A DNA stretch of 64,000 bases, taken from positions 248,001 to 312,000 of the forward strand of contig JAGNKU010000003.1 in NCBI GenBank assembly GCA_017999985.1. The letters are read 5' to 3'. Shown piece by piece: positions 19,399 through 28,436 of the stretch. Below the pieces are notes generated by a model, which saw only the letters and a program-made list of their open reading frames with translations, was not told the DNA's origin and made no database searches. Source of the DNA: Phycisphaerae bacterium (GTDB lineage Bacteria > Planctomycetota > Phycisphaerae > UBA1845 > Fen-1342). Positions within the stretch are counted from its first letter, which is position 1. Each line of letters begins with the position of its first letter. The translations under genes were made by a program, and so were the position numbers.

Positions 19399-20475
19399 TC
19401 ACACGTCCGTCGTCACAATCCGGCCATCCGTCGCATACCGCCGCCAGTCGCGCTCGCCATGGCGCCGCACTCCAGCGGCTGTTTCCGCGGCAATCTTGGC
19501 GTGCGCCAGCTCCAGGTAGCGCAGCGTACCCGGGTTGCGGCCGAGCAGATTCTCGTAGCACCACGCATCGCAGGCCACGGGATCGACGGACGCGACCACC
19601 GCCGGCCGATTGAGCACGCCGCCGGGTTGCACATCGCTGAGGCGCCCGCCCGTCGGTCCGCTGCGCAGCATGACGCGCGTGCCGTCGGCGATGACCAGCG
19701 TCGGGCTGAACAGGAGGGCCACGTCGCTGATGACCTCGTGGATGGCCTGGTGGAGCTGGTTACGCCGGCCGCCGAGCAATCCGTACCAGTTCTTGAGCTG
19801 CATCGAGCCGCCCGCCAGGTTGTGATCCTTGACGGGGGCGATGCCGATGAGCTTGGTCGCCTGCCGCAGCGGTCGGGTGAAGATCGGCCAGCGTTCCAGG
19901 GCCTCGCCACGGTCCCGCGTCGCGCGCGCGCGCACCGTCAACAGCTCGAACATGCCGGGTGACGGCCAAACCAGGTCGGCGCCTTCGGCGGTGGCGACCG
20001 CCCCTAGGCCCGAGCGGGCAAAGCAGGCCTCCGGGGATTCAATCGGATAGTCGGTCACGATCACGCGCCGGGCACCGGCCTCGCGGCACAGCCGGATCAC
20101 CGTCCGCAGCACCTCGGGGTGCGTTGTCGCGCCGAGGCTCGGCGGGCGGTCGAAGCCGGCGTTTGGCTTGATGACCACGGTGTCGTTCGCCGTGATGAAA
20201 CGGCGCATGCCGAGCTGCGCGTCCAGACCACCGACCGCGGCACGGACCATGGCGTCAATGCGGGCTTCATCGCCCGTAGCGATGCTGAGGCGCGGACTTG
20301 CGTCAGGCAGGTCAATACTCGCGAAGTAGTTGGGCAGGCGCGGCGCCGCGGACGGCCGAGCAACCCCGCTGCGATGGGACAGCCAGTATGCACCGGTCGC
20401 CGCCAGCCCGGTCGCCACCACGGCGCCGGCCCCGCGTGCGAGGGCTTCGCGGCGTGTCAGGCCATCACTGCTCAT
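19399..20475 (-). CDS. DUF362 protein with Tat signal
   Basis: A 358-residue protein of the DUF362 family, often found with ferredoxin-type proteins and of unproven biochemical function. The N-terminus has a twin-arginine signal (TRREALARGAGAVVATG). Family features include VVIKPNAGF, TDYPIESPE, an APVKDHNLAGGSMQLKNWYG segment and DPVACDAWCYE near the C-terminus. The start at 20475 is chosen because the Tat motif follows directly; the upstream extension has non-coding composition. It overlaps the preceding gene by 11 bp and leads into the Fe-S membrane protein. A paralogue sits at 24800-25879, also Tat-tagged. The Tat signal suggests export of a folded, possibly cofactor-containing protein. 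Confidence 0.83.
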   Translation of the reverse strand: MSSDGLTRREALARGAGAVVATGLAATGAYWLSHRSGVARPSAAPRLPNYFASIDLPDASPRLSIATGDEARIDAMVRAAVGGLDAQLGMRRFITANDTVVIKPNAGFDRPPSLGATTHPEVLRTVIRLCREAGARRVIVTDYPIESPEACFARSGLGAVATAEGADLVWPSPGMFELLTVRARATRDRGEALERWPIFTRPLRQATKLIGIAPVKDHNLAGGSMQLKNWYGLLGGRRNQLHQAIHEVISDVALLFSPTLVIADGTRVMLRSGPTGGRLSDVQPGGVLNRPAVVASVDPVACDAWCYENLLGRNPGTLRYLELAHAKIAAETAAGVRRHGERDWRRYATDGRIVTTDV

Positions 20476-21115
20476 GCGACGCTCGCTCTGTGCGGCCCGT
20501 GGGCACCGGCTGTGCGATGCTGGCGGCCAGACGCTCGGCGATCTGGCGGGCGACCTCCGCGTCGGCGGACTGTGCCGGCAACACCTGCACATAGTGGCGA
20601 CCCACGCGGAAGAACGCCGCGCCGGCGCTTACGTAGGCAGCGTCGCCGATCGCAACGACCGTTCGGTCGGGCGGTTGGTCCTGCTGGAAAATTCTCCCCG
20701 CACTCTCCGGCGAGCCCATGTCGTACCAGTAAACGTCGATGGTCCGCGTGTCATCGTCGCGGCGGGAATACGTGCCGAAGTTGAGACCCACCACGCCGAG
20801 CGACAGGTATGCCTCGGCCTGGCCGTCGATCTTGACGTATAGCTCGTCAGCCGAAAAACGCTCAATGCCGGTTGGCGATCGCCAATCCGCGAAATCCAGC
20901 GCGGGGAAGGCGTGCGAGTCGGCGACTGTCTTGCGCGCCTGGGCATCCGACATGGTTGACGCCTGGAGTCGCGGCGCAGACCTGCGCGTAACGTCAGTGA
21001 TGAAGGTAGCCACGAGGCCCACGACCAGCACTAAGATGACCACGCCGACGGTCTTTTCAGTCCGGCTGATCGCCGCGGCCGGGCGGGCGTAACGTCGGCC
21101 GAAAAGCGTGCTCAT
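20465..21115 (-). CDS. Membrane-anchored protein of unknown function (DUF6599-like)
   Basis: A 216-residue protein with one N-terminal membrane helix (about 23-43; VGVVILVLVVGLVATF) and an extracytoplasmic domain. The domain shows FPALDFADWRSP, YLSLGVVGLNFGTY, a TIDVYWYDMGSPESAGRIF segment and a C-terminal VGRHYVQVLPAQ stretch. I associate this pattern with the DUF6599 family, but only loosely. It is the first gene of the minus-strand set with DUF362 and the Fe-S membrane protein. It is divergent from the fused spermidine-synthase-like gene across only 70 bp, which must hold both promoters. Confidence 0.7.
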   Translation of the reverse strand: MSTLFGRRYARPAAAISRTEKTVGVVILVLVVGLVATFITDVTRRSAPRLQASTMSDAQARKTVADSHAFPALDFADWRSPTGIERFSADELYVKIDGQAEAYLSLGVVGLNFGTYSRRDDDTRTIDVYWYDMGSPESAGRIFQQDQPPDRTVVAIGDAAYVSAGAAFFRVGRHYVQVLPAQSADAEVARQIAERLAASIAQPVPTGRTERASHEQ

Positions 21116-21185: not shown

Positions 21186-23609
21186 ATGACCGCTGTACAG
21201 CCGAGCGACGTGTCCGGCACTGGCGACAGCGGCGCGCGCGCCGGGCTGGGGGTGCTGGTATTCGCGTGGGGGGCGCAAGCGATCGTAGCCCAGTCGCTGC
21301 TGCTGCGCGAAGCGCTCGTGCTGATGTATGGCAGCGAGCTGGCCTGGGGCATCGTACTGTTCGCGTGGCTGCTGGGGGTCGCGCTCGGCGCGGTCCTTGG
21401 GGGGCGCATGGCCGAGACCCAGTGTGGGCGGACCCACGCGGCCGGCCTGCTGCTCGCGGTGCTGCTTGGCCTCAGCGCTGCAACCTGCGCGGACTTGTGG
21501 ATCTTTCGCGGCGCACGCGCGTGGCTGGGTGCCGGGGTGGGCGAGTTGCTGCCGCTACCGAGGGCGGCGTGGGCGGCGCTGCTTTTCATCACACCCGTCG
21601 GCGCGCTGGTTGGGGCGGCGTTTCCGTTGGCGTGCCGTGTCGGCCAGCGGCTGGGCGCGGCAGCCGTTGCGCGCGGCGGTGGCGCGTCGTCGGACCGCGG
21701 CGCCCCGTATCTGTCCTTCGCGCGGGTGTATGGGCTGGAGTCCGCCGGCAGCCTCGCGGGCGGTGCGGCCTTCAGCTTCTGGGCCGTCGAGCACCTGGCC
21801 CCGGTGCAGACGGCGCTGGTCAGCGCGGGCGTCACGGTACTCGCCTGCGGCGCGCTGTTGGCAACCATTAATCGGGTCGGGCGGCGATGCGTGCTCGCCG
21901 GATTGTCCGGCGTCCTGGCGACCGGCGTGTTCCTGGTTGCAGCGCTCGGTGGCGACCGGCTCAACCGGCAACTGGTGGCCCGTCGTTGGCAGACAGTTGC
22001 GCCGGGTTACGACCTGGTGGCCGAAGCGGAATCGAAGTACCAGAATCTGGCGGTCGGCCAGCGCGCGGGACAATACACGCTGTATTGCGACGGGCATGTG
22101 GCGGCGAATTTCCCGGATCCATACACGTCTGCACCGCTCGCGCACTTCTGGCTGTGTCAGCACCCCGCGCCGCGCAGTGTGCTGGTGCTGGGCGGCGCCG
22201 CCGAGGGCCTGCTGGCAGAAATCCTCCGGTACCCGGTGGCGCACGTGGATTATGTCGAGCCCGACGCGCTGCTGATCGGATTGCTTACCCCGCTGCTGAC
22301 CGACACGGACCGCGCGGCCCTCACCGACCCGCGTGTGTCCGTGCATTATGCCGACGCGCGCTACTACATTAAGACGCAGCGCGCACGGTTCGACCTGGTC
22401 ATCGCCCGCCTGCCGGAGCCGACCGCGGCACAGCGCGCCCGTTTCTATACGGATGAGTTCTTCGCCGAGCTGCGCCGCGCCATGACGCCGCACGCCGTGC
22501 TGGGCACCACGGCAGCCGCGACACCGACCGAGCTGTCTGGTGCGTCGCGCGAGTACCTCTCTGGGCTGCGGGCTACGTTGCGGCGACACTTCGCGCACGT
22601 GGTGATTGGATGGGGTGATCCGGCGCAGGTGCTGGCGGCGACCGCAGACGGCCTCATCACGACGGATCCTGCGGAACTGGCCGCCCGCTATCGCGCGCGA
22701 CAGGTGGCAGCGCGGCTGTTCGATCCGGCGTGGTTCGCCGGCGCCACAGACTGGCTGGATGCGCGCAAGCTCGCACGCCGGTCGGCGGACCTCGACGCCG
22801 CCGGCCCGGTCACGCTCAGCACCGACTTGCACCCGGCCATCTACCTGCAGCGTTTGGCGCTGTGGGAGAGCTTGGCCGGCGGTGCTGCCGGCGGCGGACG
22901 ACAATTTGTCGCCTGGCTGCGGACGTTGCGATTCGGGCCGGTCGCCGGCGGACTGGCTGTCCTCGGTCTCGTTACGCTTACAAGTGTCCGATTACGTCAT
23001 CGCAACCGGCAGGGTTGGGTCGCCGGAGCCATCATGCTCACGGTGGCGACAACCGGCTTCGTGACGATGGCGTTGAGCATCGTGCTGTTGTTTGCTTTCC
23101 AGAACTTGTACGGGTACGTCTACCAGCGCATCGGCTGGATTGTGGCGCTGTTCATGGGCGGGTTGGTCGTGGGGTGCGTGTGGGCTGGCCGGCGCGCGGC
23201 GCGGCGCAATTCGAGCGTGCATGTCTGGCGCTCGCTCATTGCCGTGGATGTGCTGCTCGCCATCCTGGCGCTGGCGACTCCACCCGTGCTGCACGCGCTC
23301 GCGACACTTCAGCACGCGGCTGCTGTGGAATGGTCCATCTCCATGTTGGTGGCCGTGACGGGTTTGTTCGGCGGGGCGACGTTCGCGCTGGCCGGCCACC
23401 TGCAACTCACACTGTCCGGCCGGGCCGGCGGCGCCGCCGGCAGCGTCGTCGGCGCGGATCACGCCGGCGCATGCCTGGGCGCGCTACTCTGCGGCGTGCT
23501 GCTGGTACCGGTGTTTGGGACCGTGATGACCGCGTGGTTGCTCGCGGCGCTGAAGCTCAGCTCGGCTGCGACGCTGGCGGCGCTGCGGCGGCCGGCTCCG
23601 CGGGCTTGA
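21186..23609 (+). CDS. Membrane-fused spermidine synthase-like protein
   Basis: An 807-residue protein combining two blocks of membrane helices with a spermidine-synthase-like Rossmann domain. The N-terminal block (about 1-260) has MFS-like helices and the C-terminal block (about 575-805) several more. The central domain shows VLVLGGAAEGLLAEIL and HVDYVEPDALL, the AdoMet-binding pattern, followed by a DARYYI segment. The usual catalytic DLPDP-type motif reads ARLPEPT, so aminopropyl-transfer chemistry is doubtful. Such fusions are recurrent neighbours of DUF362 and AmmeMemoRadiSam genes in environmental bacteria; their product is unknown. Its last 53 bases overlap the convergent radical SAM gene. 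Confidence 0.83.
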   Translation: MTAVQPSDVSGTGDSGARAGLGVLVFAWGAQAIVAQSLLLREALVLMYGSELAWGIVLFAWLLGVALGAVLGGRMAETQCGRTHAAGLLLAVLLGLSAATCADLWIFRGARAWLGAGVGELLPLPRAAWAALLFITPVGALVGAAFPLACRVGQRLGAAAVARGGGASSDRGAPYLSFARVYGLESAGSLAGGAAFSFWAVEHLAPVQTALVSAGVTVLACGALLATINRVGRRCVLAGLSGVLATGVFLVAALGGDRLNRQLVARRWQTVAPGYDLVAEAESKYQNLAVGQRAGQYTLYCDGHVAANFPDPYTSAPLAHFWLCQHPAPRSVLVLGGAAEGLLAEILRYPVAHVDYVEPDALLIGLLTPLLTDTDRAALTDPRVSVHYADARYYIKTQRARFDLVIARLPEPTAAQRARFYTDEFFAELRRAMTPHAVLGTTAAATPTELSGASREYLSGLRATLRRHFAHVVIGWGDPAQVLAATADGLITTDPAELAARYRARQVAARLFDPAWFAGATDWLDARKLARRSADLDAAGPVTLSTDLHPAIYLQRLALWESLAGGAAGGGRQFVAWLRTLRFGPVAGGLAVLGLVTLTSVRLRHRNRQGWVAGAIMLTVATTGFVTMALSIVLLFAFQNLYGYVYQRIGWIVALFMGGLVVGCVWAGRRAARRNSSVHVWRSLIAVDVLLAILALATPPVLHALATLQHAAAVEWSISMLVAVTGLFGGATFALAGHLQLTLSGRAGGAAGSVVGADHAGACLGALLCGVLLVPVFGTVMTAWLLAALKLSSAATLAALRRPAPRA

Positions 23610-24798
23610 ACGCCAGCGCCTGCTCCTGCGTCCACACCCCCGGAATCGCCACCCCGCATTTCGGGCACCTTCCGTCCTTGAGCTCGTTCGCCGCCACCTG
23701 AAAGCCGATCCGCCGAATCAGCAGCCGCTGACAGCCGTGGCAGTAGGTGTTTTCGCCGGGGTGGTTGGGAACGTTACCCGCGTACACGTACCGCACGCCG
23801 GCATCCAGCGCCACCCGGCGGCAATTCTCCAGTGTCGTCACCGGCGTCGGCGGCAGGTTCGTCACGCGATACGTGGGATGAAACCGCGTGAAGTGCATCG
23901 GCACGTCCGGCCCGAGGTGCTGCACGACCCACTTCGCCATCTGCTCGATTTCTGCCGGTGAGTCGTTGAGTGTCGGGATGATGAGCACGACCAGCTCGAG
24001 CCAGATGCCGGTGCTCTTCAGCACTTCCAGCGCGCCGAGCACCGGCTTCAGCTCGCCGGCGCACATGTCCTGGTAGAACTTCTCGGTGAACGCCTTCAGG
24101 TCGATCTTGACGCCGGTGAGCTGCCGGCACAGCTCGCGCAGCGGCTTCTCCTGCATGTACCCGTTGGAGATCATGACGCTGCCGAGGCCCTGCTGGCGGC
24201 CGGCGGCGGCCACGTCGTGCATATACTCGTAGCACACCGTCGGCTCGGAATAGGTGTAGGCGATCGTTGGGGCGCGCCGCGCCCGGCACGTCTTCACCAG
24301 CTCCTCGGGCGTCACCACGATGCTCTCGACCTGCTCCGGCCGATACTGGCTGATCTCCCAGTTCTGGCAGAATTTGCACTCGATGTTGCAGCCGGCGGTG
24401 GCGATTGAGAACGCGGTCGTGCCCGGCAAATAGTGAAACAACGGCTTCTTCTCAATGGGATCAACGTTGGCAGAGCATACCGCGCCGTACACGAGCGTCT
24501 GGTACTGGCCGCCCTGATTCTCACGTACGCCGCAGTAACCGCGCTCGACGTCCGCGACTTCGCAGCCACGCGGGCAGAGCGTGCACTTGATCCGCTTGTC
24601 GGGCAGCGCCTGCCAGTGCCGTGCCGGATGACGGGCGACGCCCTTGAGCTTGGGTCCGGAAAGCTCGCTCGTGCCGGGAGTGTCCTGCGCGAGCACGCGC
24701 GCGGCCGGTCCGAACGCACATGCGGCGCCGCACGCGAGGCCCAGACGCAGCACGTCGCGGCGCGTCGGGCAACGGAACACGTTGGTGAGGTCGTCCAT
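23557..24798 (-). CDS. amrS: AmmeMemoRadiSam-system radical SAM enzyme with Tat leader
   Basis: A 413-residue radical SAM protein of the PflA-like group named after its co-occurrence with AMMECR1 and Memo. The radical SAM motif AGCNIECKFCQNWEIS carries Cys137, Cys141 and Cys144. Additional cysteine pairs lie at CTLCPRGCEV (about 72-80) and near the C-terminus (CHGC, CPKC), as in related enzymes. The N-terminus carries a twin-arginine leader (PTRRDVLRLGLACGAA) that is unusual for a radical SAM enzyme. The gene lies 1 bp after the DUF362 gene, with GAGGT inside the end of that gene. It converges on and overlaps the membrane-fused spermidine-synthase-like gene. The reaction is unknown. The gene symbol follows the system nomenclature. 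Confidence 0.9.
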   Translation of the reverse strand: MDDLTNVFRCPTRRDVLRLGLACGAACAFGPAARVLAQDTPGTSELSGPKLKGVARHPARHWQALPDKRIKCTLCPRGCEVADVERGYCGVRENQGGQYQTLVYGAVCSANVDPIEKKPLFHYLPGTTAFSIATAGCNIECKFCQNWEISQYRPEQVESIVVTPEELVKTCRARRAPTIAYTYSEPTVCYEYMHDVAAAGRQQGLGSVMISNGYMQEKPLRELCRQLTGVKIDLKAFTEKFYQDMCAGELKPVLGALEVLKSTGIWLELVVLIIPTLNDSPAEIEQMAKWVVQHLGPDVPMHFTRFHPTYRVTNLPPTPVTTLENCRRVALDAGVRYVYAGNVPNHPGENTYCHGCQRLLIRRIGFQVAANELKDGRCPKCGVAIPGVWTQEQALAFKPAEPAAAAPPASQPS

Positions 24799-24799
24799 C

Positions 24800-25879
24800 C
24801 TATACCTCGACCAGCTCGATCCGGCTCAGCGTGCCTTCGCCCAGGCCGCGTGCCGTTGCCGTGGCGATGTATTTCGCCGGACGATCTTCATCCGCGAGCG
24901 TCTTCAGCCCCTGCGCGACGCGCTGCTTGTCGAGCAGGTCGGCCGCTACCGCGTCAGCCGCGACCACGTCGTTGCTCACGATCAGCCCGCCGAACGGCCA
25001 CGCGAAGCCCGGGTGCTGTCCCGGGCCGGCGTTGTATTGGGCACGCACGCCGTCGCAGATGGTCAACCGCCACTTGGCGCGGATGTGCGGATGCGCCACG
25101 ACGTCGACGATGTAGGGGTCGCAGTTGTGGTCGTGATACTTGTTCGGGTTGTGGATGGCGCCGTAGAAGTTCTTCATGCCCAGCGTCGCGCCGGCGAGGT
25201 TGTGGTCCTTGAGAACCGGCACGGAAATCAGCACGTTGACATCTTCGGTCACGATGCGGGAGTACGCCGAGCCGATCTGACCGCTGGTTTCGATCCGGGC
25301 GTCGTAGCCGCGCCCGGGACCGTCGGCCGCGGCGCGCCGGCCGGCGTGCTCGGCGTCGGTGCCCCGGCACTGCACGCCGCTGCCCGAATGGTTGAGCTTG
25401 AAGCCGGCCTTGACCAGTTCGGCATCGAGGCGGTCCCAGACGATGATCTGTTCGGCGGGGACCCCGGCCTGGCGCAGCCCGGTGATGATGGCGTCGACGA
25501 CCGCCGGTTGCGTCGACAGCCCGAGCGCGTTGACCTTGATGCCGACGCGATCCTTTGGGCCGAAGAACTTGCGCCAAGCGGCGGTCGCATCCGGCGCGTC
25601 CGTGAGCTTCTGGATGGTAGCGTTGAGGAGCTTGACCAGCAGGTCGCGGTGGTCGTCCGGCTGGCCCTGAGTCAGCGCTTCATCGCGCGCCACCACGACG
25701 CGCGCGCGACCGCGGTTCGGCTCTGCACTCTGGCCGAAGAGCCGCGCCCCGGGCAGCGTTATCCCGGCGGCAAGCGCTCCGGCCTGGGCAAGAAAGCGCC
25801 GGCGGGTCGTCCGCGACCAACTCTGCCGCCGTTCAACCGTGGTGTCGCTGTCGCGCGATGCGTGCATGGTTGTGCTCAT
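24800..25879 (-). CDS. DUF362 protein with Tat signal, in the AmmeMemoRadiSam operon
   Basis: A 359-residue DUF362 protein. It begins with a long n-region and twin-arginine signal (TTRRRFLAQAGALAAGI), then shows DRVGIKVNALGLSTQP, VPAEQIIVWDR, VPVLKDHNLAGATLGMKNFYG and a C-terminal VAADAVAADLLDK segment. These match the other DUF362 protein at 19399-20475. The ATG at 25879 overlaps the upstream Memo-AMMECR1 stop as ATGA, indicating translational coupling. The biochemical role of DUF362 is not established; its repeated placement beside Fe-S and radical SAM genes suggests an electron-transfer or metal-related job. Confidence 0.85.
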   Translation of the reverse strand: MSTTMHASRDSDTTVERRQSWSRTTRRRFLAQAGALAAGITLPGARLFGQSAEPNRGRARVVVARDEALTQGQPDDHRDLLVKLLNATIQKLTDAPDATAAWRKFFGPKDRVGIKVNALGLSTQPAVVDAIITGLRQAGVPAEQIIVWDRLDAELVKAGFKLNHSGSGVQCRGTDAEHAGRRAAADGPGRGYDARIETSGQIGSAYSRIVTEDVNVLISVPVLKDHNLAGATLGMKNFYGAIHNPNKYHDHNCDPYIVDVVAHPHIRAKWRLTICDGVRAQYNAGPGQHPGFAWPFGGLIVSNDVVAADAVAADLLDKQRVAQGLKTLADEDRPAKYIATATARGLGEGTLSRIELVEV

Positions 25880-27387
25880 TTCTGCCCTTCCGGCTCGCCA
25901 AACACCTCCGCCTCGAACACGTCCAACCGGGCTTCCGGCCGCTGCCACGCGTCCGGCGGCAGGCCGGCCTTGCGGCAGGTCTGTGCCAGGAACTCCGCCC
26001 GCGTCCAGCCGCGTTCGTAGGCGACCTGCGGCAGCAGCACGCCGCGGTCATTGCCCAGCGTGATCAGCAGGCCATGCCGGCCGACCACGATCTCATTGGG
26101 ATTGCCGATCCGCTTCATGGGCGTTAGGTAGCTGATCTCGATATGGAGCTCGTCGACCTCATCCGGCCGCACGGGCTGGAAGCGCGGGTCCGCGCGGGCT
26201 GCGCTGATGGCATTGCGGACGACCGCCTCGTGCAGTGGCCCGTCGGCCACCATGTTGCCGATGCAGCCGCGGAGGTCGCCGTGTTTTTCGAGTGTGACGA
26301 AGCAGGCGCCGTCGGCCCGCAACGCCGGGGGGAGCTTGTCTGCGTCCACCGGGGGCAGCTTTTCGCCCTTCGCGGTGGCCGTCACCGTCTGCCGCGCGAG
26401 CCGCAGCAGTTCCGCGCGCTCGGTGGGGTTCAGCGTCCCGGAGCGGCGCGTGAAGACGAAGGACTGGTACGTCACGCTGTTACGATAGTCGTTGAGCTGG
26501 CGACCGGACGTGTCGTACGCGGCCCGCACACCTGTCGCGCCACCCTGCGCCGAGAGGACGCGCAGGAGCAAGAGCACCGGGTTGCGCCCGCAGATCGTGT
26601 CGCCGGTCTTGTCCAGGTGCTCGGCGAAACCGTCGAAGTCGCAGCGGATCAGCGGTGCGGCGGCCTTTTCCGCCAGCTCCCGGAGCTTGTCGGGTACGTC
26701 TTCCTGGAACGGTACGTAACCGTAATCGGGGCCGAAGTGCGTGCAGTCCGTGCTTGCGACGAGCAGCGTGTTGGCGTCGACCAGCGGCAGGAGCGCTTGC
26801 GCGGCCTGGGCGTATTCCGCGGCGCGCAGCTGCCCGATCAGCAGCGGCACGAGCTTGAAGTCGATCAGTGTGCGCTGCAGGAACGGCAGTTGCAGTTCCA
26901 GCGAGTGCTCGCCTGCATCCACCGCGGGATTCGACGTGAACAGGGCGTTGCCGAGCAGCCGGGCACACGCCGCGCGGTCGATTGGGACCTCGCCCAGCGG
27001 GGTGCGGTAAGCGGTCAGTTCCCCCGGAACTTCGATGCCATGATAGCGGTTGGCGTGGCGGTGGCTGAACGCGAGCACGATGACGCGCTTGAATCCGTGG
27101 CCGCGCACCGTTGCGTACGCGGCCGCGGCCGTCGGCGCGCTGAAGCGATAGCCCGCATGCGGGCAGATGAGCGCCACCGGCGGACCGTCAATCGCGGGCG
27201 GCTTGGCTTGTGCCAGCAGTTCGTCGAGGAATTTCGCGAGTTCGCCCGCATCCGCGGGATACCAGGTCCCGGCACAGGCCGGGGCCCGCACCTTCGGATC
27301 ATCGGCGCCGCGCGCGGGCAGCGCGCTCGGCCACGACCCCGTGATCCCCGCGACGAGTGCCAGGAGCAGTACACGTGGTGCGCGCAT
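25876..27387 (-). CDS. amrB/amrA: Memo-AMMECR1 fusion protein of the AmmeMemoRadiSam system
   Basis: A 503-residue fusion with a Sec-type signal (RVLLLALVAGITGSW). Residues ~30-310 are the Memo domain, related to class III extradiol dioxygenases, with the metal-site segments CPHAGYRF, FSHRHANRYHG, GEHSLELQLPFL and STDCTHFGPDYG. Residues ~320-495 are an AMMECR1 domain with the signature LRGCIGN. Many organisms encode these as separate AmmeMemoRadiSam proteins A and B; here they are joined in the order B-A. The start at 27387 is preferred because a GGAGAC ribosome site and the signal peptide fit; the ATG-less extension to 27432 does not. It is the first gene of a three-gene coupled operon with DUF362 and the radical SAM enzyme. 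Biochemical activity is unknown. Confidence 0.9.
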   Translation of the reverse strand: MRAPRVLLLALVAGITGSWPSALPARGADDPKVRAPACAGTWYPADAGELAKFLDELLAQAKPPAIDGPPVALICPHAGYRFSAPTAAAAYATVRGHGFKRVIVLAFSHRHANRYHGIEVPGELTAYRTPLGEVPIDRAACARLLGNALFTSNPAVDAGEHSLELQLPFLQRTLIDFKLVPLLIGQLRAAEYAQAAQALLPLVDANTLLVASTDCTHFGPDYGYVPFQEDVPDKLRELAEKAAAPLIRCDFDGFAEHLDKTGDTICGRNPVLLLLRVLSAQGGATGVRAAYDTSGRQLNDYRNSVTYQSFVFTRRSGTLNPTERAELLRLARQTVTATAKGEKLPPVDADKLPPALRADGACFVTLEKHGDLRGCIGNMVADGPLHEAVVRNAISAARADPRFQPVRPDEVDELHIEISYLTPMKRIGNPNEIVVGRHGLLITLGNDRGVLLPQVAYERGWTRAEFLAQTCRKAGLPPDAWQRPEARLDVFEAEVFGEPEGQK

Positions 27388-27596
27388 GTCGGCGTCTCCA
27401 GCGTGGTGTGAGCCGGGATTGTACCACACCACAGCCGGGTGCGCCCCGCTGCAAGTTGTGTTTGCCGCGTCTGGCGCGGCTGTGGCGCGGCAGGCTGGAT
27501 CAGCCTCACCCGCCCGCCCTGGCGGTGGTATAATGGGATCTCAGAGTCGAACGCGCAGCGGTCCGGGCTGGCCGGCGCGGAGTGGAGGAAGTCCGC

Positions 27597-28436
27597 ATGT
27601 CTGGAAGATCATCTTGCCTGGCGGTCTTGATGCTCGTTGCCGGCGTTCACGTCGCCGCGGCACAGCCGGAATGTGCCGGCCTGGGTGACCTGGACGCCAA
27701 CGGTCTCGTCGGGTTCACGGACCTCGGGGCCTTTGCCGCTTGCATGGCTGGGCCGGGCGTGACGCCGGCCTGCGATCCGGTCGTGGCGGAGCGCGCCGAT
27801 TTCGGCCCCGACGGCGACGTGGACCTCGGTGACTTCGCCACTTTGAGTCCGCTCGTCGGCCGCCAGTACTTCGACTACGGTCCGCACCGCGCGAGTCTCG
27901 AAGCGGAAATGCTGGCCATGCAACTCACCGGTCAGTTGCGGGCGCCGGACGCGCAGTACGACCGCATACTTGGTGACCTGGCGAGGATCCGCGCGGCGTA
28001 CCCGGTGCTGGTCACCGTGACCGATGATCCGGACTACGTTCCGAACGAGCTCATCGTCAAGCTGGTCGCGGGTCAGCCGCTGGACGAATACAACGCGTTG
28101 AATGCGTACTACCTGCTGACGGGCCAGGAGCTGATCTTCGGCACCTGGTGGACGCTCTCGTTTTGCGACAACCTGAATGCGAACGCCCTCGGACCGATCT
28201 ACGCCGCGCTGGCCGCCGTCGAGTTCGCGGAACCGAACTACCTGATCGGCATGGACGATCAGATCACGGTTGCCGCTTTGGGCGGGACGTATCGCTACAC
28301 GATCGACGACGGCTTCCTGGACTGCTTCGACGGCTGTGACTGTCACCGCGTGTGGGTCTTCGACGTCTCGCTCTTCGGCTCTGTGACGCTGGTATCGTAC
28401 CAGGAATATGGCCAGCCTTGGTGCGAGTTCCGGTGA
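27597..28436 (+). CDS. Exported dockerin-type EF-hand protein
   Basis: A 279-residue secreted protein. After a short signal (CLAVLMLVAGVHVAAAQ) comes a dockerin-like pair of calcium loops: GDLDANGLVGFTDLGAF and FGPDGDVDLGDFATL (about residues 26-85). This is the arrangement common in planctomycete exported proteins, thought to serve in surface attachment. Residues ~140-215 contain VPNELIVKLVAGQPLDEYN and AAVEFAEPNYLIG, which resemble the propeptide-like domain seen before subtilisin-type proteases, but no protease domain follows. The C-terminus has a CFDGCDCH cysteine cluster. The start at 27597 is supported by GGAGGAA 6 nt upstream; a GTG at 27582 overlaps that site. Confidence 0.72.
   Translation: MSGRSSCLAVLMLVAGVHVAAAQPECAGLGDLDANGLVGFTDLGAFAACMAGPGVTPACDPVVAERADFGPDGDVDLGDFATLSPLVGRQYFDYGPHRASLEAEMLAMQLTGQLRAPDAQYDRILGDLARIRAAYPVLVTVTDDPDYVPNELIVKLVAGQPLDEYNALNAYYLLTGQELIFGTWWTLSFCDNLNANALGPIYAALAAVEFAEPNYLIGMDDQITVAALGGTYRYTIDDGFLDCFDGCDCHRVWVFDVSLFGSVTLVSYQEYGQPWCEFR

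Follow-up and report, generated by a model that had tools for sequence, protein, structure and literature searches.

The AmmeMemoRadiSam system is made up of three protein families (TIGR04335, TIGR04336 and TIGR04337), and its parts have human counterparts in MEMO1 and AMMECR1. Radical S-adenosylmethionine (SAM) enzymes are regarded as cytoplasmic because they need S-adenosylmethionine (AdoMet) and a strong reductant, and iron-sulfur proteins destined for export ordinarily fold with their clusters inside the cell and then leave through the twin-arginine translocation (Tat) pathway. Here, a 64,000-nucleotide stretch of the 5.2 Mb genome of a Phycisphaerae bacterium (assembly GCA_017999985.1; contig JAGNKU010000003.1, labelled C3, positions 248001–312000; the whole stretch is called the window) was analysed with respect to an AmmeMemoRadiSam operon whose products carry predicted export leaders. 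A preliminary description of the window had ascribed export signals to all products of this operon, a general secretory (Sec)-type leader to the Memo-AMMECR1 fusion and Tat leaders to a DUF362 protein and the radical SAM enzyme, and this was borne out, with the gene starts confirmed; its remark that the function of the AmmeMemoRadiSam system is unknown agrees with the literature searched. The locus is read here as an extracytoplasmic, membrane-associated version of the system, for which comparative evidence suggests a probability of about two in three.

Operon structure and the leader of the radical SAM enzyme

Three open reading frames were confirmed on the minus strand at 23557–27387, in the order Memo-AMMECR1, DUF362 protein (DUF362a), radical SAM enzyme. 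Memo-AMMECR1 runs from ATG 27387 to 25876; DUF362a starts at ATG 25879, within an ATGA that also contains the Memo stop, and ends at 24800; the radical SAM gene runs from ATG 24798, one base past the DUF362 stop, to 23557. The three genes are a tightly coupled operon. A gene for a spermidine synthase (SpdSyn)-like membrane protein lies on the plus strand, convergent with the radical SAM gene, and the ends of the two overlap. The features of this module are as follows.

25876–27387, minus strand: Memo-AMMECR1 fusion (AmmeMemoRadiSam proteins B and A); TIGR04336, TIGR04335, PF01875, PF01871; MEMO1-equivalent iron ligands
27304–27387, minus strand: Sec-type leader of Memo-AMMECR1, from sequence; cleavage near A28 placed by eye
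24800–25879, minus strand: DUF362 protein a, predicted LarA-like fold; PF04015, structure model, similarity to the LarA family
25733–25879, minus strand: predicted Tat leader of DUF362a; end placed by eye
23557–24798, minus strand: AmmeMemoRadiSam radical SAM enzyme; TIGR04337, CNIECKFC and other family cysteines
24688–24798, minus strand: predicted Tat leader of the radical SAM enzyme (M1–A37); R13 and R14 invariant and A37 nearly so in 19 sequences
21186–23609, plus strand: polytopic aminopropyltransferase-like (SpdSyn) membrane protein; PF01564; seven transmembrane segments, soluble domain, six to seven transmembrane segments
21945–22940, plus strand: soluble aminopropyltransferase-like domain, predicted outside from the positive-inside pattern in 27 sequences; Protein Data Bank (PDB) entries 1uir and 3anx

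The radical SAM enzyme matched TIGR04337 with 392.5 bits (cut-off 220). Its leader, PTRRDVLRLGLACGAACAFG...VLA, is of the Tat type; the twin arginines (RR) R13 and R14 were invariant in 19/19 aligned leader-bearing relatives, and A37, the final residue before the predicted cleavage site, was kept in at least 90% of the same 19. Fifteen enzymes of the window's type, the window's own included, were found in 61 genomes, and all carry a leader: the script called 14 of them, and the remaining one was recognised by eye; in two of the 14 (L068 and L072) the script found no start ahead of RR and therefore tagged the leader as Sec type. Among the 30 best of 37 radical SAM matches in the window's genome, a credible N-terminal Tat leader was seen in the window's enzyme only, and the genome's second TIGR04337 enzyme carries none. 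Script calls on two further enzymes of this genome (L252 and L272) were rejected as not leader-like, one of them sitting at residue 124. A TatC match (PF00902) lies in two stretches on contig C9. A lipobox was considered for the conserved cysteines (ACGAAC) of the radical SAM leader and was dropped by eye using the PROSITE lipoprotein rule. In L072, L080 and L068, short repeat-like, partly palindromic inserts were seen within the n-region of the Tat leader, between start and RR; from RR onward these leaders are of the usual form.

Spread of leaders among relatives

A scan of named genomes gave at least 574 relatives, from which the 80 most similar to leader-bearing sequences were retained; omission of L115 and L117 (same contigs as L076 and L070) left 78, which, because they were chosen in this way, give no measure of leader frequency in the family. 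The closest among the named-genome matches listed was a Phycisphaerales relative (L115). The preliminary description had named a survey of homologues as a check, and leaders were indeed called in 63 of the 78 by script (43 Tat, 20 Sec type) and in nine by eye, with six lacking one; the sixth of these, L145, is cut by a contig end. Within the best 80 of at least 574, carriers span about 20 phylum-level names in record titles, nearly all of them metagenome bins, and include Planctomycetota, Acidobacteriota, Thermodesulfobacteriota, KSB1, Zixibacteria, Omnitrophota, Elusimicrobiota, Calditrichaeota and Myxococcales, together with two archaeal groups, Altiarchaeota and Aenigmatarchaeota.

Leaderless controls (n = 40) were drawn from leaderless score classes within the window's own phylum or order; the script called a leader in 2/40, both in long upstream extensions, and both calls were rejected by eye. 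An enzyme tree was calculated from 178 rows out of 182 distinct enzymes (L145, L066 and L067 were left out as truncated or masked, and one was removed by a length/duplicate filter), with the script calls on L224 and L228 removed; leader state on this tree required one change, against a mean of 59.3 after shuffling. The preliminary description had also pointed to leaderless homologues in which these N-termini would prove to be untranslated; the leaderless homologues found fall in other clades and have other neighbours. A second clade of RR-leader radical SAM enzymes (n = 7) was observed, in L072 (7202–8341, plus strand), L081 (9588–10778), L037 (4851–5993), L035, L036, L033 and L082. At the five loci of this clade that were looked at, the enzyme has as its neighbour a conserved protein, about 500 residues long and lacking a Pfam match, with a signal-like hydrophobic start in 3/5 by the threshold used.

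Conserved sites of the radical SAM enzyme and Memo-AMMECR1

The CxxxCxxC motif is present as CNIECKFC, and C137, C141 and C144 are kept in the exported and in both leaderless groups. Fifty-four positions conserved at 90% or more held the same residue in 94 exported enzymes and in the two leaderless groups (40 and 39 sequences); they include the three cluster cysteines and eight further cysteines (C72, C75, C79, C89, C353, C356, C378 and C381). The motif and other core residues are conserved to the same degree as in leaderless relatives, which speaks for selection on AdoMet chemistry in the putatively exported enzymes.

The fused Memo-AMMECR1 protein of the same operon matched TIGR04336 with 188.5 bits (cut-off 26) and TIGR04335 with 184.8 bits (cut-off 99). 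Its leader, MRAPRVLLLALVAGITGSW, is of the Sec type, and a leader was called by script in all 12 window-type loci holding a Memo gene. Near the 78 relatives, Memo genes were found at 45 loci, with a leader by script in 39, compared with 0/7 near the controls; lipobox-like sites occurred in 12/51 Memo leaders. An excerpt of PMC11081632 gives H49, H81 and C244 as the iron ligands of human MEMO1. The equivalent Memo positions were kept in 58/59, 59/59 and 59/59 sequences, respectively, and the AMMECR1 motif cysteine in 54/59, four of the remaining five being gaps. Two more Memo-family genes were seen in the same genome (G000:C1:804698-805531 and C10:130732-131550), one of them divergent (105.7 bits); these two genes and the leaderless radical SAM paralogue point to a separate set in the cytosol.

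Partner proteins

Two partners stronger than the iron-sulfur membrane protein proposed in the preliminary description emerged, namely the aminopropyltransferase-like membrane protein and the DUF362 protein with its LarA-like fold. At more than 300 bits, DUF362a was found in exactly the 15 of 61 genomes that hold the exported enzyme (Fisher p 1.4e-14), and at more than 350 bits the membrane protein was found in those 15 plus G025 (Fisher p 2.3e-13); these p values are to be read with the cut-offs of 300 and 350 bits having been set after the scores were seen, and with related genomes not being independent. The genome G031, in which the radical SAM, DUF362 and membrane genes are all present as fragments, was entered as 'neither'. 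The co-occurrence holds even across contigs. Within about 8 kb of the enzyme, the membrane protein was found in 33/78 named-genome relatives, 4/15 near relatives and 0/40 leaderless controls, and a DUF362 gene in 24/78, 13/15 and 0/40, respectively; many loci end at contig ends, so these counts are lower limits.

DUF362a matched PF04015 with 77.4 bits (cut-off 24), and its leader, TTRRRFLAQAGALAAGITL, is of the Tat type, with a strict call in 11 of the 13 window-type loci that have the gene. Invariant residues include K66, N68, K175, D176, H177 and the run NPNKYH. Its AlphaFold2 model (predicted local distance difference test, pLDDT, 91.6) matched LarA-family structures in Foldseek with E values down to 7.4e-6, and structural alignment to the LarA family gave Z scores of 14.8–16.6 over about 205 residues, the next unrelated structure scoring 4.8. 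Family models gave PF04015 and a weak Npun_F2552 match only, with none to DUF2088/LarA, and a sequence-profile comparison with LarA gave no PDB match. According to an excerpt of PMC11770544, DUF362 and DUF2088 have been placed in one Pfam clan. LarC was present in 55/61 relatives and is not specific, so that the idea of a nickel-pincer cofactor is neither supported nor excluded by it.

The model of the membrane protein (pLDDT 86.7) shows seven helices, a soluble domain and then six or seven helices. In 27 sequences, with an extra hydrophobic stretch at 331–347 assigned to the soluble domain, the mean number of Lys and Arg residues per loop before the domain was 2.0, 3.1, 2.7 and 2.6 in the proposed inside loops and 1.0, 2.0 and 0.4 outside, and after the domain 3.6, 4.0, 2.3 and 1.6 inside and 0.6, 0.6 and 0.4 outside; since Lys/Arg-rich loops alternate in this positive-inside manner, the soluble domain is predicted to face outside. 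It matched the aminopropyltransferases 1uir and 3anx by fold (E 4.6e-12) and by profile (E 3.6e-46). The ribose- and adenine-site acids were kept in 25/27, 26/27 and 27/27 sequences; at the positions that in spermidine synthases hold the aminopropyl amine and provide the catalytic Asp, an acid was found in 0/27 and the Asp in 4/27, respectively, the window's protein having A339 and R408. With the nucleoside-site acids kept, the amine-site acid gone and the catalytic Asp mostly gone, the domain may accommodate a nucleoside of the AdoMet type and yet not be a spermidine synthase.

Neighbouring genes

Beyond the membrane protein gene, three further genes lie on the minus strand.

20465–21115, minus strand: DUF6599 protein with an N-terminal hydrophobic segment; PF20244, 90.5 bits
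19399–20475, minus strand: DUF362 protein b, predicted Tat leader LTRREALARGAGAVVATGLA; PF04015, 131.7 bits
17655–19394, minus strand: membrane polyferredoxin with several 4Fe-4S sites; Fer4_5, Fer4_7, Fer4_10, Fer4_16

The DUF6599 gene adjoins the module again in L077, L135, L143 and L150, and the polyferredoxin gene stands beside it in some Acidobacteriota (L125, L135 and L150). Two Acidobacteriota loci, L135 and L150, hold the full set of the window (polyferredoxin, DUF6599, DUF362a, radical SAM enzyme, Memo-AMMECR1, membrane protein and DUF362b). A run of about ten glycines was seen between the 4Fe-4S domains of the polyferredoxin. On the other side of the operon, 27582–28436 (plus strand) encodes a protein that looks secreted; a dockerin-like repeat was recognised in it by eye, and its match to a Fervidolysin N-terminal prodomain is weak and below cut-off.

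Proposed mechanism and alternative explanations

The radical SAM enzyme would receive its 4Fe-4S cluster and fold in the cytoplasm, leave folded through Tat and be cleaved after Ala37; DUF362a, with its LarA-like fold, would likewise be exported folded through Tat, and Memo-AMMECR1 would leave through Sec, perhaps as a lipoprotein in some relatives. Outside, the exported components would act jointly on an extracytoplasmic substrate, AdoMet would be bound or supplied by the membrane protein, whose aminopropyltransferase-like domain is predicted to point outward, and electrons would cross the membrane by way of the polyferredoxin. The parts of this scheme differ in likelihood. The mature radical SAM enzyme very probably lies outside the cytoplasm; that it is also active there with AdoMet is favoured by a modest margin, and a role of the membrane protein as AdoMet handler is doubtful. 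The complete picture, a widespread exported lineage carrying out AdoMet radical chemistry outside, with AdoMet presented by a dedicated membrane protein and with a LarA-fold protein and an iron-binding Memo-AMMECR1 as partners, is put forward tentatively. The preliminary description had considered an extracytoplasmic radical SAM enzyme; the location is well supported by comparison and stays a prediction. Its suggestion that the iron-sulfur membrane protein supplies electrons fared less well: the polyferredoxin recurs in some Acidobacteriota, but it is too widespread over the 61 genomes to be a specific donor and was kept as a possible one.

Several observations weigh against an extracytoplasmic system. 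Neither AdoMet nor low-potential electrons would be expected beyond the cytoplasm, and the polyferredoxin (more than 300 bits) was found in 13/15 module carriers and also in 13/46 other genomes. The Pfam TAT_signal match of the radical SAM enzyme is weak (E 0.0048; 17.2 bits, cut-off 22.7), so the case for its leader rests mainly on conservation. Sec-type leaders, called by script in 20/78, fit poorly with export of a folded iron-sulfur protein unless these leaders serve as anchors or were given the wrong label by the script. Five of the 78 are leaderless (L161, L167, L183, L186 and L189), two of which (L167 and L186, Omnitrophota) stand near the base of the exported group, with a SpdSyn-like membrane protein adjoining both. 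The branch parting leader from leaderless enzymes has a support of 18 only, and ten leader labels on the tree were assigned by eye (L131, L135, L133, L126, L134, L138, L153, L147, L180 and L080). No export experiment on these proteins was found in the literature searched.

The scarcity expected of AdoMet and strong reductant outside, and the many extra conserved cysteines of the radical SAM enzyme, would also suit proteins that are exported although the enzyme performs no AdoMet chemistry there, either reacting before export, in a one-time maturation whose client would be Memo or DUF362, or serving as an iron-sulfur or metal binder. This is a minor but serious contender, set against the conservation of CxxxCxxC and the core at the level of leaderless relatives, and against the finding that the enzyme is tracked by a membrane protein whose SAM-type domain is predicted to lie outside. 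Less likely still are leaders that act as uncleaved anchors or quality-control tags, with the active complex at the inner face of the membrane: several Omnitrophota (L159, L162, L165, L169 and L170) do have the look of a single N-terminal membrane segment, but an RR leader puts the following domain outside, the conservation of A37, where cleavage is predicted, suggests that the leader is cut off, and Memo-AMMECR1 has an ordinary Sec leader, in some sequences with a lipobox-like site.

It is very improbable that the leaders are artefacts and that translation begins downstream. Internal GTG codons occur in the radical SAM gene (24780, 24753 and 24696, none with an obvious ribosome-binding site) and in the Memo gene (27291), those at 24696 and 27291 being the candidate starts, and the n-region inserts of three relatives would fit untranslated sequence; codon changes in the leader between close pairs (third positions 18/36 and 15/33) are of little help on this question. 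The RR pair, the hydrophobic run and the cleavage-site Ala are nevertheless kept across distant lineages, which marks the leaders, on comparative grounds, as not a start-site artefact, and the start codons couple to preceding stops. The extracytoplasmic, membrane-associated system thus stays the favoured reading.

Comparison with known systems

In the literature found, a search for AmmeMemoRadiSam gave no record naming it in the title or the opening of the abstract; none was found treating AMMECR1, MEMO1 and radical SAM together, or DUF362, Tat and radical SAM. A passage on radical SAM and Tat signals was not relevant, and a match for MEMO1 and radical SAM stood only inside a reference list. 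An exported radical SAM enzyme, or an AmmeMemoRadiSam variant with these partners, was likewise not found, most subscription journals and bioRxiv being outside the scope. The AmmeMemoRadiSam families are already known, and the putative exported variant with these partners is new to the literature searched. A conserved lineage of exported enzymes would imply one of two surprising things: that in some bacteria AdoMet and low-potential electrons get to the outer side of the membrane, or that the enzyme does its work a single time before being exported. The exported variant would give the AmmeMemoRadiSam system partners and a compartment, and its substrate would therefore be easier to look for.

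As in known AmmeMemoRadiSam systems, all three families are co-located with scores above cut-offs, and the family cysteines and Memo ligands are intact; unlike them, each component here carries a predicted export leader, and exported or membrane partners are added. The exported lineage stands apart from leaderless AmmeMemoRadiSam members, which have DUF362 or the membrane protein nearby in 0/40. The closest solved radical SAM enzyme by sequence, pyruvate formate-lyase activating enzyme (3c8f), aligns with the core (profile positions 135–290), and this match leaves out the leader and the N- and C-terminal cysteine motifs of the window's enzyme family. With the LarA superfamily (DUF2088, nickel-pincer lactate racemase) the DUF362a model shares the fold, whereas DUF362a is predicted to be exported, has about 310 residues of which about 205 align, and gives no DUF2088 match. 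Polyamine aminopropyltransferases (1uir and 3anx) and fused membrane spermidine-synthase-like proteins have the same soluble fold, with the ribose and adenine acids kept; the domain of the window's type differs from them in being predicted outside and in having mostly lost the amine-site and catalytic Asp.

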